The notes: generated by a model not told the origin, from the sequence alone. DNA of 64,000 nucleotides from an uncultured Bacillota bacterium (GCA_949298975.1 CASFYR010000002.1:1-64000); one strand, 5' to 3'. Positions 13,262 through 24,092 are shown, counted from the first letter of the stretch. A program made the numbers and translations.

Positions 13262-13290
13262 GTTATTTTCAGCAAAGTTTTTGCTTATGC

Positions 13291-13296
13291 TATAAT
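13291..13296 (+). promoter_or_regulatory. Extended -10 box, leaderless promoter of rapZ
   Basis: TGCTATAAT with six bases to the ATG at 13303, again putting +1 on the start codon. This is the likely promoter for rapZ-yvcK-whiA and the genes behind them. Confidence 0.65.
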
Positions 13297-13302
13297 AAGA
13301 CC

Positions 13303-14148
13303 ATGGAAAGAAAAGTAATTTTGATCAGTGGTTTGTCAGGAGCCGGCAAAACCAGCGTATCAAATGTATTGGAAGATCTTGGATATCGCTGTATTGACCA
13401 GCTGCCGAATTTTCTGTTGGCAGATCTTTTGAATTACATCGAAAAAGATGAAACCGGCACCTATCAGAATATTGCCATTACCATATCCTTGCTTGATCTG
13501 GGCGGTTTTTTGAATGTCTTTGAAAACCTGCATTTTGATGCCAGAGTCCTCTTGCTTGATGCCGATAAAGACGCGCTGTTGAACCGCTACAAATTTACCC
13601 GGCGGATTCATCCGCTTTTGATCGGCAACATTGCCGATACATTAGAAGAAGCGATCGATATCGAAAAAGAAGAATTGACCAAATACAGCGATAAATATGA
13701 TGTGATCAATACTACTTCTCTTGGCACTTATGAACTCAAAGACTATGTTGAACGGCTGCTTGATGTTAATAATGTCAGCAAATTTACCATTTCTTTTGTT
13801 TCTTTCGGATTTAAGAACGGCCTGCCAAAAGATGCCGATCTGGTCTTTGACGTACGTTTTTTAGATAATCCGTTTTATGTAGAGGATCTGCGCCATCAGA
13901 CCGGCAACGATCAGGATGTTTACGACTATGTCATGTCCAAAAGCAAGACAAGGGAATATATCCGGATTTTGGAGGAATATCTGGATTATTCGTTTGCACA
14001 ATATATCAAAGAAGGGAAAAGACATCTTACGGTTGCCGTCGGCTGTACCGGGGGACAGCACCGCAGTGCCAGTCTCATCAATTATCTGTATAACCGTTAT
14101 TGCACGATCTATACCTGTTTTAAGAATCATCGCGACATAAGGAAATGA
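13303..14148 (+). CDS. rapZ: RNase adapter / nucleotide-binding protein RapZ (YvcJ)
   Basis: 281 aa. P-loop GLSGAGKTS at residues 9-17, Walker B-like VLLLDADKD near 85, and the C-terminal RapZ domain with GCTGGQHRSASL near 252. In Gram-positive bacteria the protein (YvcJ) binds and hydrolyses NTPs; in enterics it controls glmS mRNA decay. It heads the conserved rapZ-yvcK-whiA cluster, and its stop overlaps the yvcK start by four bases (AATGAAA region). Confidence 0.96.
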   Translation: MERKVILISGLSGAGKTSVSNVLEDLGYRCIDQLPNFLLADLLNYIEKDETGTYQNIAITISLLDLGGFLNVFENLHFDARVLLLDADKDALLNRYKFTRRIHPLLIGNIADTLEEAIDIEKEELTKYSDKYDVINTTSLGTYELKDYVERLLDVNNVSKFTISFVSFGFKNGLPKDADLVFDVRFLDNPFYVEDLRHQTGNDQDVYDYVMSKSKTREYIRILEEYLDYSFAQYIKEGKRHLTVAVGCTGGQHRSASLINYLYNRYCTIYTCFKNHRDIRK

Positions 14149-17136: not shown

Positions 17137-18047
17137 TCAGATACGCATTAACTGAAGAAAAAGATCGATTGCAAGAGATATGGCATGACGCTTTCGCTTT
17201 TGACGACGGCGGTTTTACTGATTTCTTTTTTACCGATCTTTATGATAAAGGACAGCACTATGTTTTGACCCAGGAAGAAAAGATCGCCGCGATCGCCTCG
17301 GTCTTTAAGCATGATTTTATGATTGGCGGCCGGCGGCTAAAGGTTTCAATGATCGCAGGAGTAACGACCCTGCCTCCTTACCGCAATCAGGGATTAATGA
17401 GCAGTCTTTTAAAGGAAATACTGGATCAGCTGAGCCGTCAGGATCTGCTGACGATGATTCAGGCGTATGATTCGGCGATCTATCAAAAATTCGGCTTTGA
17501 AACAGTTTATCACCGCCGCCGTTACTATTTCAATTACCGCGGATTTAACTACAGTTCGACCGACGGAATCAAAGACGAGATCGTTACAACTGATCTTTTA
17601 AAGATCTATCGCCGTTTCACCCGGCTTTTCAGCGGTTATAAGACCAGAAATACCGACTATTTTGAAACGATGCTCAGAGGGATCAAAGCGCAAAATCAAA
17701 TGATCAGGATTGTTTATGACTCTAACGGTAATCCCAAAGGATATTTTATCTATGAGCGAAACACCAAGCAGATCATTATTCATGAATGTTTATATCTTGA
17801 TGCCAGAACGCTCAATAAGATCTTATCTTACTGTTTGGCGCAAAGAGAAAATGTAATCATATATTTGAGCGAATATGAACGGATTGAACGGCTTTATCCG
17901 GGAGTGGCGTATGATACGAGCGATTATACGATGGTAAGGGTCAATGATTATCAATTATTCAATAAACTGTTTAAAAGCGAAATTACTGATCCGCTTTCGG
18001 CGATGACCATCGACAATAAACCATTATTTATGCATGAGGAGATCTAA
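17133..18047 (+). CDS. GNAT family N-acetyltransferase, Eis-like
   Basis: 304 aa. The N-terminal GNAT domain contains the acetyl-CoA loop VTTLPPYRNQGLMSSLL near residues 75-92 (Q/RxxGL/A pattern), and a second half (about 130-300) probably forms the Eis-type second GNAT/sterol-carrier-like region. Substrate unknown. It overlaps the DUF2156 gene, and the two acyl- or aminoacyl-transfer proteins may act on related substrates; this is inference. Confidence 0.83.
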   Translation: MIRYALTEEKDRLQEIWHDAFAFDDGGFTDFFFTDLYDKGQHYVLTQEEKIAAIASVFKHDFMIGGRRLKVSMIAGVTTLPPYRNQGLMSSLLKEILDQLSRQDLLTMIQAYDSAIYQKFGFETVYHRRRYYFNYRGFNYSSTDGIKDEIVTTDLLKIYRRFTRLFSGYKTRNTDYFETMLRGIKAQNQMIRIVYDSNGNPKGYFIYERNTKQIIIHECLYLDARTLNKILSYCLAQRENVIIYLSEYERIERLYPGVAYDTSDYTMVRVNDYQLFNKLFKSEITDPLSAMTIDNKPLFMHEEI

Positions 18048-18048
18048 A

Positions 18049-18867
18049 GTGAAAGAAGTTGTAATCAATAGTTTTGAAGAATTACAGAATCTGGTCTTTG
18101 AGGATTGCTTCGATCTTAAGACTAACCGTTACCGCAACAACCGGGTGTACCGGGGAGTCAGAAATAAAGATTTTAATCTTTTGACGAAACTGAACCGGGT
18201 CTGCAGCCACGATCTGACTCTGGAATCATCAATATTACGCAGTTTTCAGAAATATGGCTATACCGATGTCAAAGACTGTCAGTCATTCTGGCAAATGGTG
18301 GCAATGGGGCAGCATTACGGTTTGCCGACAAGACTTCTGGATTGGACTTATTCTCCTTTGGTAGCTGCTCATTTCGCTACGGAAGACATCTATGAATATG
18401 ATAAAGACGGTGCGATTTATTGCATTAATATGGAAGCCGGACAGGATCTTTTGCCGGATTGCCTTTTGAGTGAGCTTAAGAAAAACCGAGCCAACAGTTT
18501 TACTTTAAGTATGCTCGACGCCTGGGCTAAAAACTATGACGAACTAAAGGCGTTAAGCGATCATCCGTTTTTCTTGTTTTATGAACCGGCCTCGCAAAGC
18601 AATCGTATGACCAATCAGTACGCCCTTTTTTCCATGACTTCCGATCCGTCATACTCCCTGTTTGATCTTTTAAGCGATTCCAAGACCGATGAGCTGATCA
18701 AGATCATTATTCCCAAAGAGGTAAAACTGGAGATCCGGGACAAGCTGGATTACATCAATATTTCTGAACGATTGATCTATCCGGGACTTGACGGCATCTG
18801 TTCATGGATCACCCGCCGTTATTCTGATCTTGGCCATCGGTATAATAAAAAGAAGAAGTCTATTTGA
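18049..18867 (+). CDS. FRG domain-containing protein
   Basis: 272 aa if started at GTG 18049. AGGAG lies seven bases upstream of that GTG and inside the end of the previous gene; an ATG at 18034 overlaps the AGGAG itself and is less likely. The FRG domain (named for its F/YRG motif) is seen at about 15-110: YRGVRNKDFNLLTKLNR, then GQHYGLPTRLLDWTYSPLVAAHFA. The function of FRG proteins is not settled; several occur in phage or defence settings, but here it trails a housekeeping operon. Its 3' end overlaps the convergent gene by 8 bases. Confidence 0.85.
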   Translation: MKEVVINSFEELQNLVFEDCFDLKTNRYRNNRVYRGVRNKDFNLLTKLNRVCSHDLTLESSILRSFQKYGYTDVKDCQSFWQMVAMGQHYGLPTRLLDWTYSPLVAAHFATEDIYEYDKDGAIYCINMEAGQDLLPDCLLSELKKNRANSFTLSMLDAWAKNYDELKALSDHPFFLFYEPASQSNRMTNQYALFSMTSDPSYSLFDLLSDSKTDELIKIIIPKEVKLEIRDKLDYINISERLIYPGLDGICSWITRRYSDLGHRYNKKKKSI

Positions 18868-19372
18868 CCTCTTCTCCTAAAATCTTCTTTAAAGATTCCA
18901 AACCTTTTTCAGCGATTTTCACCGTGGTGACTTTCGCTTTTTTTATGGCTTGTTTGGTTTCTTCCTTATTCATATAATCTTCGACCTGATGATAGATCTC
19001 GTTGGCAAAAGCCTGAGCTTTAGCGCTGGTCTTCTTAAATTCTTCGGAGTTTAAAAAACGGTTGATCGCATCTTCGATATCGTTTTTTTCTTCCTTGATC
19101 CTCAACAGATCATCGATCTTGTGGATCGAATAATAAAAGGCATCATTGAAACGGGAGGTGATCCGATCTTCAAATTCTTCAAGATCAATACCGGCCGGTT
19201 CGCTTTGCGCTTCTTCGATCTTGCGGATGGCTTCGCCTAAGACTTTTGCGGTCTGATTTTTGATCTCTTTTGCCTTTTCTTTGGTAAGATCATCAGCCAT
19301 AGCGATCTCTTCTTCCCGATATCTTTGCATTCTGGCCAGTTTGGCATATAAGGCAGTTGTTTTTTCTGACAT
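18860..19372 (-). CDS. Hypothetical acidic, helical protein
   Basis: 170 aa from ATG 19372, chosen because AAAGGAG lies nine bases upstream; a longer frame to 19510 would run through the promoter of the divergent gene and has no ribosome site. The protein is rich in Glu and Lys, almost all helical (KEKAKEIKNQTAKVLGEA..., DDLLRIKEEKNDIEDAI), with no membrane segment or cysteine. Not recognised. It may be a coiled-coil stress or structural protein. Confidence 0.7.
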   Translation of the reverse strand: MSEKTTALYAKLARMQRYREEEIAMADDLTKEKAKEIKNQTAKVLGEAIRKIEEAQSEPAGIDLEEFEDRITSRFNDAFYYSIHKIDDLLRIKEEKNDIEDAINRFLNSEEFKKTSAKAQAFANEIYHQVEDYMNKEETKQAIKKAKVTTVKIAEKGLESLKKILGEEVK

Positions 19373-19426
19373 ATCAATTTGCTCCTTTATCTTCATTATA
19401 CACAGGATTGTGGCATGATGATGTGA

Positions 19427-19432
19427 TATAAT
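19427..19432 (+). promoter_or_regulatory. Extended -10 box, leaderless promoter of the 19439 acetyltransferase
   Basis: TGATATAAT with six bases (CTTGAT) to the ATG at 19439; +1 would be the A of ATG. Confidence 0.65.
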
Positions 19433-19438
19433 CTTGAT

Positions 19439-19897
19439 ATGATCGAAAAGATGAATGAGACAGATTATGAAACGGTGAAAGCCATGGCCCATAAGCTGCA
19501 GCTGCAGCATGTTAGGGGGCGGGAGGATATTTTTGATCCTGCTTATGAAGAATATAATATTGATTCGTTCCGAGAACTGGTTAATTCGGATAATAAAATG
19601 GCTTACACAGCCAAAGAAAACGGCCGTATTTTAGGTTATATCGTCGCTGAAATCATCAATTTAAAAGGAGTTTTCAAAAAGACGGTCATTGTTTATGTCA
19701 ATGATCTTTATGTGGCTGAAAAAGCCAGAGGCCGGCATATCGGCAGTTCTTTGATGGCCAGGATCGAAGAAGACGCCCGAAGAATCAAAGCGCAGCGGAT
19801 CGAACTTATGGTCTGGAGTTTTAACCAAGAGGCAATTGCCTTTTATGGGCGGTTGGGGTATGGTATCCGCAGTATGATAATGGATAAAGTGTTATAG
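19439..19897 (+). CDS. GNAT family N-acetyltransferase
   Basis: 152 aa, single GNAT domain. The acetyl-CoA-binding motif A is VYVNDLYVAEKARGRHIGSSLM near 88-109 (RGRHIG) and motif B is ELMVWSFNQEAIAFYGRLGY near 122-141, typical of small RimI- or YhbS-type acetyltransferases. Substrate unknown. The mRNA appears leaderless. Nine bases separate it from the next gene. Confidence 0.85.
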   Translation: MIEKMNETDYETVKAMAHKLQLQHVRGREDIFDPAYEEYNIDSFRELVNSDNKMAYTAKENGRILGYIVAEIINLKGVFKKTVIVYVNDLYVAEKARGRHIGSSLMARIEEDARRIKAQRIELMVWSFNQEAIAFYGRLGYGIRSMIMDKVL

Positions 19898-19906
19898 GGG
19901 ATCGTG

Positions 19907-20386: not shown

Positions 20387-20392
20387 TATAAT
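20387..20392 (+). promoter_or_regulatory. -10 box, leaderless promoter of the XpaC-like gene
   Basis: TATAAT with seven bases (ATTAGGC) to the ATG at 20400, so the predicted leader is none or a single base. It probably drives the four-gene set up to 24067. Confidence 0.6.
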
Positions 20393-20399
20393 ATTAGGC

Positions 20400-21359
20400 A
20401 TGAAAGACGGAAACAGCTTTATTGGTTTAATATTTTTTATCGTATTTTTTGGGGGTTTTGTCGGACCGATGTTCGGCTTGTTTTTTGAATTGGTTCCGCT
20501 GATCATATTTATCTTTATTATTTCCCGGGTGATTAAGGCAGTTTCGCAGGAATCCAAAACGACCAGACGGAATAATCGCCGTAAAAGCAGCAATACTAAC
20601 CGTTATACGGTCAATCGTTACGATATGTCAAATAAGGATCTCACTAAGATCGATGATAAACTGCGGGCATATTTTGCCGATAACTACGAATTGCCGATTT
20701 TTGATGATATTGTCTTGGTGCCCAAGGGCGGCAAATACCGGGCTTTTGAAGAACTTTATATCGCCAAGGGCGGCGAGACGATCATGTCTTTGAAAGAGTT
20801 CGGCGATAGTTATCCCTCAACTCATAGCAAGATAACTTCTTTGCTTTTGCTGTTTGCCAAAGGCGACGATATGCCTAAAAAAGAAGAAACCCCGGCAAGA
20901 CAGCCAAAGGTCAAAAAGCCTCAATCCAAAGCGGCGATGTATATCGAAAAGATCAGTGATCTGAATATCGCGATCCCTCAAGAAGAGATCACGACCGGGT
21001 TAGAGCAAACCTGTACTCTTTTAAAACAGATCGATATTTCAACAAGCGGTGAAGACGATAATATTCTGGATAAGCTTTATGAATATTATCTGCCGATCTT
21101 GATCAAGATTTTAGAAAATTATAAAGGTCTGCTTGATGCCGGAGCCAAAGGCGATGAGTTTAAAAAGTGTGAAGATCAGCTGATCAAGACGATCCTTTTG
21201 ATCAACGAAGCTTTAAAAACGATCAACAATACGATCCATGAAGATGATTTTATGAACCTGTCAGCCGATATAACTACGCTTCAGTCGCTGCTGAAAAAGG
21301 ACGGTTTGGTTAAAGAAGGTTCAATTTACAGTGAAAGCGGTAAAGATGATGAGCAATAA
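20400..21359 (+). CDS. XpaC-like (5-bromo-4-chloroindolyl phosphate hydrolysis family) membrane protein
   Basis: 319 aa. Two membrane segments at about 5-46, a basic linker (SKTTRRNNRRKSSNTNR), a middle domain (about 75-160, FDDIVLVPKGGKYRAFEELYIA) and a C-terminal helical domain (about 180-310). The last part (YEYYLPILIKILENYKGLL...INEALKTINNTIHEDDFMNLSADITTLQSLLKKDG) matches the XpaC pattern. XpaC-type genes usually sit beside telA (toxic anion resistance); here the partner is a tandem AAA+ ATPase instead. Function is unknown. First gene of a leaderless transcript. Confidence 0.75.
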   Translation: MKDGNSFIGLIFFIVFFGGFVGPMFGLFFELVPLIIFIFIISRVIKAVSQESKTTRRNNRRKSSNTNRYTVNRYDMSNKDLTKIDDKLRAYFADNYELPIFDDIVLVPKGGKYRAFEELYIAKGGETIMSLKEFGDSYPSTHSKITSLLLLFAKGDDMPKKEETPARQPKVKKPQSKAAMYIEKISDLNIAIPQEEITTGLEQTCTLLKQIDISTSGEDDNILDKLYEYYLPILIKILENYKGLLDAGAKGDEFKKCEDQLIKTILLINEALKTINNTIHEDDFMNLSADITTLQSLLKKDGLVKEGSIYSESGKDDEQ

Positions 21360-21873
21360 AAAGACCGAAAAATTCGATGAGATCGATAAAATGTTTGAAA
21401 ACCTGCAGAAAGCCAATGACGAAACAGTGGATTCTTTTAAGCAGCGTTTAAACGAAAATAAGAAAAGCCAAGTCAACCTGTCCGATCTTAATACCAAAAT
21501 GCGCAAGACGATGATGGTGAAAAGACCGGTTGTTCCCGATCGGATCGATGTGGACTTCAATACCCGTTATGACTATTTTTTGTATCTGATCCAAAATGTC
21601 AATTACGGTTCATCCAACTCGGAAAACTATGTTATCGGTCATCGTCGGGCATTAAACAAATATTTATGCGAAGCTGATCGCAACCCGACAGATCTTTCGC
21701 TTTGCGAAGCGGCAATCAGCGACGAGATCCATAGCATGCTTAACCGTTCCAAGACTTCTTTGGATACCAAAGGCTATTTTGATGGTTTAAACTATGTACA
21801 TAAGTCTTTGCGCAAATCCAAGGAAATCATGGCGGAGCGAATCAATAATATACTGAAAAGAGAATTGAATTAA
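21346..21873 (+). CDS. Hypothetical soluble protein of the XpaC-AAA cluster
   Basis: 175 aa (ATG 21346 or 21349), starting inside the previous gene. A coiled N-terminus (KTEKFDEIDKMFENLQKANDE) is followed by a mixed domain with NTRYDYFLYLIQNVNYG and a helical end. No family recognised. Its stop and the ATG of the ATPase overlap by one base (TTAATGG), so the ATPase is translationally coupled to it; it is a good candidate for an adaptor or substrate of that ATPase. Confidence 0.75.
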   Translation: MMSNKKTEKFDEIDKMFENLQKANDETVDSFKQRLNENKKSQVNLSDLNTKMRKTMMVKRPVVPDRIDVDFNTRYDYFLYLIQNVNYGSSNSENYVIGHRRALNKYLCEADRNPTDLSLCEAAISDEIHSMLNRSKTSLDTKGYFDGLNYVHKSLRKSKEIMAERINNILKRELN

Positions 21874-23885
21874 TGGTTAATAAAGAAAAAGAAAGACTGA
21901 TGGCCGAACTGTTCGGTAAAAAAAGAGATCTTACTTTTGATGCGGTCGATGTGCTGGGATCGTCATCCGGTGAACTGGAACGGATCATCAAGGAGAATAA
22001 AAGATCAATTGCTTCCCTGAAAGATCAGGTGGACGAAAAAACCGTTGCCAAGATCGATAATGAAGTGAGGAAGGATTTTAATCTGGCCTCCCTGAAACAA
22101 GAATTGGAAAGCGATCTGGCGGTTAAACTGGAAGTGCCCGAAACGGTTTCGACCGGCAAAGCCTCGCGTGAGGTATTTGAAAAGATCAATGCCGGGCTCA
22201 ATGATCTGGTGCTGGGGCAAAAAGAGGCCTGCAAGGCTATGACGATCGCTTTTAGAAGACCTTATGTTACCGGATATGATGTCAATAAGATCAAAAACAG
22301 TATCATTCTGACCGGGTCAAACGGCAGCGGCCGCCATCTTTTGATCAGAAGCATGGCTGCGCTTTTAAAACAGCATGGTTTAACGACAAGCGATGAGATC
22401 GCTTATCTTGATATGCGGGAATACACTTCACCCAGCAGTGAAGCTTTGTTTTTGCAGGATCTTTATGTCGCTTTATCCGGTAAAGCGCCGATTGTAATCA
22501 TTGAACATATGGAAGAAGGCCATGCCCTGTTTAACCGGATGATCGCTGAACTGGTGGTAAACGGCGAACTGAAACTCAATCAGCGTTATATCTTCAAAAA
22601 CGGCCACCTCGCTTTAGCCAGCGGCAATCTGACCAAAGAAGTGATCGATTCGCTAAGCGGCAACGCCAAGACCTTGGTTTTTATTTCGGAAAACTCCGAA
22701 GGCAAGATGCTGGATATTTTTGGCAAATCCTTTATGGATAAGATTGCCGACCGGATCAGAACGGTATATCTTGATGAGAAATCGCTCGATAAGATCATTG
22801 ATAAGATCATTGCCGAGCTGATCAGGCGCTGCCATGATAAACTGGAGATCGAAGTTTTGATCGATGATTCGATCAAAGAATATCTTTTACGGCACTACAG
22901 CCCTAACGACGGGGTTGATTCAATAACCCCTCTGATCAAAAAAATGTACGACGAGCTGGTCGATATCGCACTTAAACAGGATGATTTTAATTCACTGGTC
23001 ATTCGTTATGATGAGGGGATCAAAGTGATCATTGACAAGGATGAGATCGGTTTGGATCTTGAAGATGACAATAGTTTCGAGCGGGCGGAAATCGACAGGG
23101 AACTGGCAGAAATCGTCGGTTTAAAACCGGTCAAAGAATATCTTTTGAGTTTAGAAGATCATTTGAAAGTGTCACGGCTGCGCAAAGCCAAAGGACTTAA
23201 AACGACCGAGGTTTCCAAGCACATGATCTTTACCGGCAATCCGGGAACCGGCAAGACAACGATTGCCCGGCTGGTATCGCGGATGATGAAGGCTTGCGGT
23301 ATTTTAAAGCAGGGTCAGCTGGTTGAAGTTACCCGTGCTGATCTTGTCGCTAAATACGTTGGACAGACGGCGCCGTTAGTGATGGATGTCGTTAAAAGCG
23401 CGTTAGGCGGCGTATTGTTTATTGATGAAGCCTATTCGCTGTATCGGGGCAAAGATGATTCGTTTGGTCTTGAGGCGATCGATACGCTGGTCAAAGCGAT
23501 GGAAGATCACCGTGACGATCTGATCGTGATTTTGGCCGGTTATTCTAAAGAAATGCAAATTTTCTTAGATGCCAACAGCGGTCTTAAATCGCGTTTTGCC
23601 AATATCATTAATTTTCCTGATTATACCGGCAAAGAGCTGGCTTTGATCGCGGAATCGATAGCTAAAAGCAAGGATTACCGGATCGAGGATAAAGCCTTGC
23701 CGGCCTTGATCGCTTATTTTGACAAGATCCAGTCTTCTAAAGACACCACCAGCGGCAATGGCCGTTTGGCCCGTAATTTAGTTGAAGAAGCGATTCTTAA
23801 CCAGTCAAAAAGGGTATTGGAAGATGAGACGGCAGCGATCGATCTTTTGATCCTGGCTGACTTTGATCTGCGGGAGGAATTATGA
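21873..23885 (+). CDS. Tandem AAA+ ATPase: degenerate ClpA/B-like module plus CbbX/SpoVK-like module
   Basis: 670 aa. The first ATPase module (about 105-370) looks ClpA/B-like (LVLGQKEACKAMTIAFRRP) but its P-loop reads TGSNGSGRH, with Arg in place of the essential Lys, and its Walker B reads IVIIEHMEE without the usual DE. It is probably inactive. The second module (about 405-665) is of the CbbX/SpoVK type with an intact P-loop TGNPGTGKTT, the conserved ADLVAKYVGQTA, Walker B GGVLFIDEAYSLY and arginine finger region GLKSRFANII. The protein probably remodels another protein; the genes on either side are membrane proteins, so it may work at the membrane. Confidence 0.85.
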   Translation: MVNKEKERLMAELFGKKRDLTFDAVDVLGSSSGELERIIKENKRSIASLKDQVDEKTVAKIDNEVRKDFNLASLKQELESDLAVKLEVPETVSTGKASREVFEKINAGLNDLVLGQKEACKAMTIAFRRPYVTGYDVNKIKNSIILTGSNGSGRHLLIRSMAALLKQHGLTTSDEIAYLDMREYTSPSSEALFLQDLYVALSGKAPIVIIEHMEEGHALFNRMIAELVVNGELKLNQRYIFKNGHLALASGNLTKEVIDSLSGNAKTLVFISENSEGKMLDIFGKSFMDKIADRIRTVYLDEKSLDKIIDKIIAELIRRCHDKLEIEVLIDDSIKEYLLRHYSPNDGVDSITPLIKKMYDELVDIALKQDDFNSLVIRYDEGIKVIIDKDEIGLDLEDDNSFERAEIDRELAEIVGLKPVKEYLLSLEDHLKVSRLRKAKGLKTTEVSKHMIFTGNPGTGKTTIARLVSRMMKACGILKQGQLVEVTRADLVAKYVGQTAPLVMDVVKSALGGVLFIDEAYSLYRGKDDSFGLEAIDTLVKAMEDHRDDLIVILAGYSKEMQIFLDANSGLKSRFANIINFPDYTGKELALIAESIAKSKDYRIEDKALPALIAYFDKIQSSKDTTSGNGRLARNLVEEAILNQSKRVLEDETAAIDLLILADFDLREEL

Positions 23886-24067
23886 AAAAAGCCGGAATTT
23901 TTATCGCATTATTATTAGTTAATATCGTCGTTTTATTGATCGCGTTTATTTTGGGCGATCAGTTGGCGGATATCGTCTTATACGGTTTATTGTTTTATGT
24001 GATGATATCGACGCCGATCTATCTTTATTTACAGCTTAAAAGTATTCAAAAAATGGCTAAGAAATAA
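23882..24067 (+). CDS. Tiny two-segment membrane protein
   Basis: 61 aa, two membrane segments (about 4-26 and 30-50) and a basic end (KSIQKMAKK). The ATGA overlap with the ATPase stop couples them. Not recognised; possibly a membrane anchor for the ATPase complex. Confidence 0.75.
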   Translation: MKKAGIFIALLLVNIVVLLIAFILGDQLADIVLYGLLFYVMISTPIYLYLQLKSIQKMAKK

Positions 24068-24092
24068 ACAGACTGCGGTCTGTTTATTGTTA
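24066..24092 (+). terminator. Terminator of the XpaC-AAA cluster
   Basis: AAACAGAC (24066-24073), loop TGCG, GTCTGTTT (24078-24085), then ATTGTTATTT. Confidence 0.85.

Follow-up and report, generated by a model that had tools for sequence, protein, structure and literature searches.

A candidate motor module of the TelA/XpaC envelope-stress system in Erysipelotrichaceae: a membrane XpaC-like protein, a small helical protein and a tandem AAA+ ATPase

Introduction

A close described counterpart of the genes considered here is the XpaC-TelA pair, represented by xpaC-yaaN of Bacillus subtilis, which lies together with yceCDEFGH in the sigma-W regulon (PMC3498285), and by lmo1966-lmo1967 of Listeria, for which the passage of PMC12791056 citing Collins 2010 reports a greater sensitivity of the telA (lmo1967) mutant to nisin and tellurite. 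TelA has been considered a component of sub-membrane structures, and HAD enzymes are listed among the components of Ter systems (PMC7824862). Among AAA+ proteins, CbbX, EccA, and SpoVK act as dedicated chaperones, each for a single narrow target, and their variable N-terminal regions may recruit the substrate (PMC10659427). Ravi et al. 2024 (PMC11237479) describe a protein that carries two AAA+ domains, of which the N-terminal one is inactive, and that is occasionally linked to PspA; ATP-dependent membrane remodelling is proposed for it. In this work we describe a cluster of four genes located at positions 20400-24067 of a 64,000-nt stretch of DNA (hereafter the window; GCA_949298975.1, CASFYR010000002.1:1-64000), which belongs to the 1.3-Mb draft genome of an uncultured Bacillota bacterium. 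The cluster is probably the motor module of an envelope-stress system of the TelA/XpaC type, separated from the TelA gene in the genus of the window.

The relatives of the genome belong to the Erysipelotrichaceae, and named matches included Lactimicrobium massiliense and uncultured Erysipelotrichaceae. Compared loci are designated by L numbers and genomes by G numbers, G000 being the window's own genome. The membrane XpaC-like protein encoded by the first gene is called XL and the small helical protein encoded by the second one SM. The cluster comprises the following coding features, with lengths in amino acids (aa):

20400-21359, plus strand: XL, membrane-anchored XpaC-like protein, 319 aa (open reading frame, weak PF10112 match, homologues)
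20931-21326, plus strand: XpaC-type C-terminal domain of XL, residues 178-309 (hhalign against the true XpaC of L042)
21331-21873, plus strand: SM, small soluble all-helical protein, 180 aa from a GTG start (homologues, AlphaFold)
21873-23885, plus strand: tandem AAA+ ATPase, 670 aa (open reading frame, family searches, full-length homologues)
21972-23009, plus strand: N-terminal pseudo-AAA module of the ATPase, residues 34-379 (PDB profile search, residue conservation)
23040-23846, plus strand: C-terminal catalytic AAA+ domain of CbbX/SpoVK/EccA type with its lid, residues 390-658 (PDB profile, residues)
23882-24067, plus strand: membrane protein of 61 aa with two predicted hydrophobic segments (homologues, coding conservation)

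The cluster resembles the XpaC-TelA pair in the XpaC-homologous C-terminal domain of XL and in the presence of TelA in the same genome, adjacent in relatives, and a role in envelope stress is expected. In contrast, it includes two further proteins, a large tandem AAA+ motor and SM, its XL is longer and has an extra alpha/beta domain, and the parts are split in the window genome.

Results

The order XL-SM-ATPase recurred in the family of the window and formed a conserved unit across the Erysipelotrichales. Co-occurrence was surveyed in 215 genomes of this order. Homologues of XL were found in 108 of them and both XL and the full-length ATPase in 98; in 90 of these 98 the two genes lay on the same contig, and in 87 they were within 1.1 kb of each other, a clustering far beyond chance. 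An earlier note on this DNA had envisaged a membrane-bound remodelling machine; the neighbourhood formed by a membrane XpaC-like protein, a small soluble partner, and a motor of CbbX/SpoVK type was indeed conserved across the order, whereas remodelling is an activity proposed for it.

In several genera the unit extended into TelA. The order XL-SM-AAA-XpaC-TelA-LemA-like-TPM (XpaC being PF10112 and TelA PF05816) was contiguous in one operon in L042, L044, L086, and L172, and a shorter contiguous form, XL-SM-AAA-TelA, was found in L040, L045, L168, L170, and L171. Where XL was missing, the ATPase adjoined a short XpaC and TelA (L046, L047) or TelA (L174, L175), and LemA-like and TPM proteins also joined the operon in L046. 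TelA was the next or next-but-one gene to the ATPase in L040, L042, L044, L045, L046, L086, L168, and L170-L172. The same parts were scattered over three places in G032 (L041, L052, L053). In G001, a congener of the window genome, XL and the ATPase were absent and TelA was retained, which suggests that the XL-ATPase module was lost as a unit.

TelA was present in 102 of the 103 genomes with the full-length ATPase vs. 8 of the 112 without it (Fisher P = 2.7e-50, not corrected for kinship). Collapsed by genus, a procedure that controls kinship only roughly, since these figures are counts and not events, TelA occurred in 24/24 genera with the ATPase vs. 3/48 without it (P = 3.7e-16). In addition, TelA was carried by all 17 genomes retrieved through the ATPase from a different collection, which comprised Erysipelotrichaceae and Clostridia (Lachnospiraceae, Ruminococcaceae, Acutalibacter). 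The ATPase was often solitary in Clostridia; TelA adjoined a long XpaC-like protein in most of them, and in some cases LemA-like and TPM proteins came next. In Lachnospiraceae, the genes flanking the solitary ATPase (GAPDH, PGK, transporters) looked like random housekeeping genes and were discarded as partners. From these distributions, the ATPase is a facultative addition with a practical requirement for TelA.

The window's own genome encodes a full TelA at G000:C49:2866-3846, on a contig other than that of the cluster. The earlier idea that the ATPase replaces TelA as the partner of XpaC was not supported, given TelA in the same genome, the nearly perfect co-occurrence, and the adjacency of both genes in several genera. 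On contig C49 (L062:2719-4537), TelA was followed by the gene of a HAD-type phosphatase, with a DLDGT motif recognized by inspection; within the window's genus, such a gene came after TelA in L062, L064, and L065, and one of the same size in L063, L066, L067, and L071.

The ATPase was analyzed by means of a profile built from 15 orthologues and searched against the PDB, and residues were counted in 50 aligned homologues. Residues 34-379 matched the second AAA (D2) domains of ClpC (6em9, best E 4.5e-19), ClpE, Hsp104, and ClpB, and the C-terminal part matched CbbX (3syk, E 1.1e-81) and EccA1 (9lur, E 9.7e-80). At the Walker A lysine of the N-terminal module, 31/50 homologues had Arg and 18/50 Lys, but the next residue was His in most, and the catalytic Glu of Walker B was missing in all 50. 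The C-terminal catalytic residues K461 and T462 (Walker A) and D518 and E519 (Walker B) were kept in 50/50, with the Arg finger R574 and the sensor-2 R631 likewise invariant. Because catalytic residues are lost in the first part and invariant in the second one, the protein is read as a degenerate, dead module of Clp-D2 type fused to an intact ring domain of CbbX/SpoVK type.

Members of the SpoVK-CbbX-EccA clade are recognized by a GY sensor-1 signature, an Asn four residues before the first Arg-finger position, and a sensor-2 Arg (PMC10659427). The C-terminal domain of the ATPase shares the three marks, G556, Y557, and N568 being invariant in 15 rows and R631 in 50/50; the first Arg-finger position is K in the window and the second, R574, is the invariant one. 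It differs from the clade in its dead N-terminal module of Clp-D2 type, vs. short, TPR or other N-terminal domains, and in that it scores below the curated equivalog cut-offs of all three named members (298.9 vs. 422.95 bits for SpoVK, TIGR02881; 240.5 vs. 459.25 bits for CbbX, TIGR02880; 253.3 vs. 466.65 bits for EccA, TIGR03922). Relatives of 1100-1200 aa from Paraclostridium, Sporanaerobium, and Terrisporobacter (L099, L101, L108), related through the CbbX-type domain, were not counted, as they are multi-AAA+ proteins of another architecture; one of them carries a C-terminal SHOCT motif.

Membership in this clade brings in a rather unlikely alternative, namely that the ATPase serves some other enzyme of the envelope as its dedicated chaperone and that TelA, XpaC, and XL act as membrane recruiters or regulators and not as clients. 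MurG is activated by SpoVK, a member of the same clade (PMC10659427), proteins of this clade as a rule serve a single narrow target, and the operons of L042, L044, L046, L086, and L172 also take in LemA-like and TPM proteins, which are suspected membrane-assembly factors. However, no enzyme of peptidoglycan or lipid metabolism recurred beside the ATPase in the loci examined, where its sole recurrent partners were XL, SM, XpaC, TelA, and the LemA-like and TPM proteins.

According to its AlphaFold model, which was weak (mean pLDDT 71.5, pTM 0.37), XL consists of a hydrophobic hairpin at about residues 7-45, a small alpha/beta domain at about residues 78-154, and a helical XpaC-type domain. XL matched PF10112 (XpaC) with an E of 0.0065 and 16.9 bits, under the Pfam gathering threshold of 29.8 bits, and at E 1e-3 the PF10112 profile matched nothing in the own genome. 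Although XL scores below this cut-off, its C-terminal helical domain is, judged from profile alignment, a homologue of XpaC: residues 178-309 aligned by hhalign with the true XpaC of L042 with 97.3% probability and an E of 2e-11.

SM, whose alternative start codon is an ATG at 21346, was predicted to be all-helical (AlphaFold mean pLDDT 79.4), and 17 other loci had a homologue of it between the XL and ATPase genes. It seems to be often missing, since about one third of the close XL-ATPase pairs in the 215-genome survey lack room for it. The 61-aa membrane protein was restricted to four of the genomes compared (the window and those of L031, L032, and L035); it was therefore rejected as a core member and looks like an accessory, lineage-specific extra. 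The two membrane ends that had been attributed to the machine are, for this reason, not a general feature.

Several observations weigh against a dedicated TelA motor. Among 200 genomes of Lachnospiraceae type (the family of G227, one of the 17 genomes retrieved through the ATPase), 100 carried TelA and 5 the full-length ATPase, all 5 TelA-positive; TelA is thus widespread without the ATPase, so the latter is not needed for TelA function in general. TelA lay on a different contig from the cluster in every sampled genome of the window's genus, and G139, a well-completed genome, had the ATPase and XL with TelA not detected. Concerning the smaller partners, SM belonged to no Pfam or NCBIfam family and had no significant fold match in a PDB structure search, and the same kind of search with the XL model gave no significant fold match and none to known adaptors. 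The separate contigs, seen also in several other genera, and the wide occurrence of TelA alone would agree with two independent devices, the ATPase/XL/SM module and TelA, answering the same stress and kept together merely through a shared niche or regulon. We consider this quite improbable: tight linkage recurred across many genera in varying forms that drew each time on the same few genes, XL and true XpaC are homologous to each other, and every one of the ATPase-bearing genera has TelA. Functional membership of the module in the TelA/XpaC system is, on this comparative evidence, very likely.

The four open reading frames that had been reported to overlap or abut were confirmed in place, with junction overlaps of 28 nt (14 if SM starts at its ATG), 1 nt, and 4 nt, which suggests translational coupling. 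Against congeneric genomes, all four genes displayed conservation of coding type, codon position 3 being the least conserved, and nonsynonymous divergence (dN) was well under synonymous divergence (dS) wherever dS, frequently saturated, could be estimated; by these measures they are real genes under purifying selection. Two regulatory features flank them:

20387-20392, plus strand: -10 box TATAAT, 7 nt before the XL start codon, of leaderless type, with no good -35 box
24063-24088, plus strand: terminator-like hairpin with a weak T tail (folding)

TATAAT-like boxes also occurred near the start of the XL gene in L031, L034, L036, L037, and L038, and most congeners kept such a box at this position; on this conservation the cluster has a promoter of its own. 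The folded stretch of the hairpin reached -16.3 kcal/mol (z -5.9); because its T tract is poor, we graded it as a terminator-like site and not as a proven terminator. Of the single promoter and single terminator claimed before, the former is accordingly upheld by the conserved box, while the latter is reduced to a terminator-like hairpin; the available evidence gave no indication of independent transcription of the genes. In the window as a whole, TATAAT-like boxes ending 6-7 nt before an ATG were strongly over-represented (20387-20402, 19425-19441, 13290-13305, and others), with 11 scored -10 matches at these two offsets against about 1-2 at most of the rest, a sign that many mRNAs of this lineage may be leaderless. 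An Rfam search of the window gave no match.

The gene at 19904, immediately preceding the cluster, had been offered as a possible further member. It was seen in the window only, with no homologue in any compared locus, and it is probably separate because the cluster has its own -10 box; it was therefore dismissed. The GNAT gene at 19439 was also set aside, being conserved only in the closest genome. A helical protein of no family, encoded on the minus strand at 18860-19510, upstream of the XL gene, was retained in the neighbourhood of the cluster by most congeners and by some other genera (L031, L032, L034-L038, L080).

Further upstream, at 18034-18867, a protein with an FRG domain (PF08867, E 1.3e-23) matched the PADLOC candidate group PDC-S15 (E 6e-48). 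This gene, 1.5 kb upstream and matching candidate defence models, would fit a role of the cluster in phage defence or in a Ter-type conflict system, as would the inclusion of TelA in the Ter repertoire implicated in resistance to phages and xenobiotics and its presence in some jumbo phages (PMC7824862; PHROG 5890). We regard such a role as very improbable, since XL, SM, the 61-aa protein, and TelA matched no PADLOC model and the ATPase gave weak, generic AAA matches, only the closest genome (L031) had the FRG gene next to the module, and the order of the module is conserved across many genera, unlike that of typical defence islands.

Discussion

A motor anchored in the membrane and remodelling TelA is the model best supported by the material gathered here, because the envelope-stress regulons, the sub-membrane proposal for TelA, and the narrow-target chaperone clade combine in it. 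From linkage, co-occurrence, and active-site conservation, all documented by comparison, we infer each physical step as follows. The hydrophobic hairpin of XL would anchor the complex at the inner face of the membrane, and its XpaC-type domain (or the short XpaC where XL is missing) would recruit the ATPase together with SM. The dead Clp-D2-like ring may serve as a docking and stabilising platform, and the active CbbX-like ring would spend ATP in remodelling or disassembling a client, most likely a sub-membrane TelA assembly. This would serve to protect or repair the membrane under envelope stress and to recycle the TelA assembly. We put at about even the chances that the ATPase acts directly on TelA as its client, alone or together with XpaC. 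The stricter version, in which TelA assemblies below the membrane are taken apart in an ATP cycle by the pseudo-AAA/CbbX ring, anchored by a membrane protein with an XpaC domain, is speculative and, as matters stand, unlikely.

As far as the description in Ravi et al. 2024 allows a comparison, the PspA-linked protein resembles the window ATPase in its two AAA+ domains, its inactive N-terminal copy, and a membrane-protection partner, and differs from it in that partner, which is TelA/XpaC here and not PspA. PspA (PF04012) was found neither in the own genome nor in any ATPase-positive genome among 60 relatives, and was rejected as a hidden partner of the ATPase on account of this absence. Nine of the 60 relatives had PspA above the cut-off and none of the nine had the full-length ATPase, a pattern confounded by family; the lack of overlap fits a replacement of one by the other. 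A looser analogy, proposed as such, is that with ESCRT-III and Vps4, where an AAA+ ring acts on a helical assembly associated with the membrane; the window ATPase comes, however, from a different AAA+ family, and no ESCRT-III homologue was found.

No earlier description of an operon of TelA, XpaC, and an AAA protein was found in the open literature, a search outside which lay the 2012 Ter survey of Anantharaman, Iyer, and Aravind and the paper of Collins 2010. With the ATPase, the SpoVK-CbbX-EccA clade gains what looks like a further dedicated chaperone, whose N-terminal platform is a dead ring of Clp type. If disassembly of TelA assemblies by the ATPase were true, it would amount to a Vps4-like cycle of membrane repair built from unrelated parts, in lineages without PspA. 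TelA and XpaC are widespread and have been annotated for decades as proteins of tellurite or 'toxic anion' resistance without a mechanism; with a motor that almost never occurs without TelA, and often lies in the same operon, the role of TelA becomes concretely testable.

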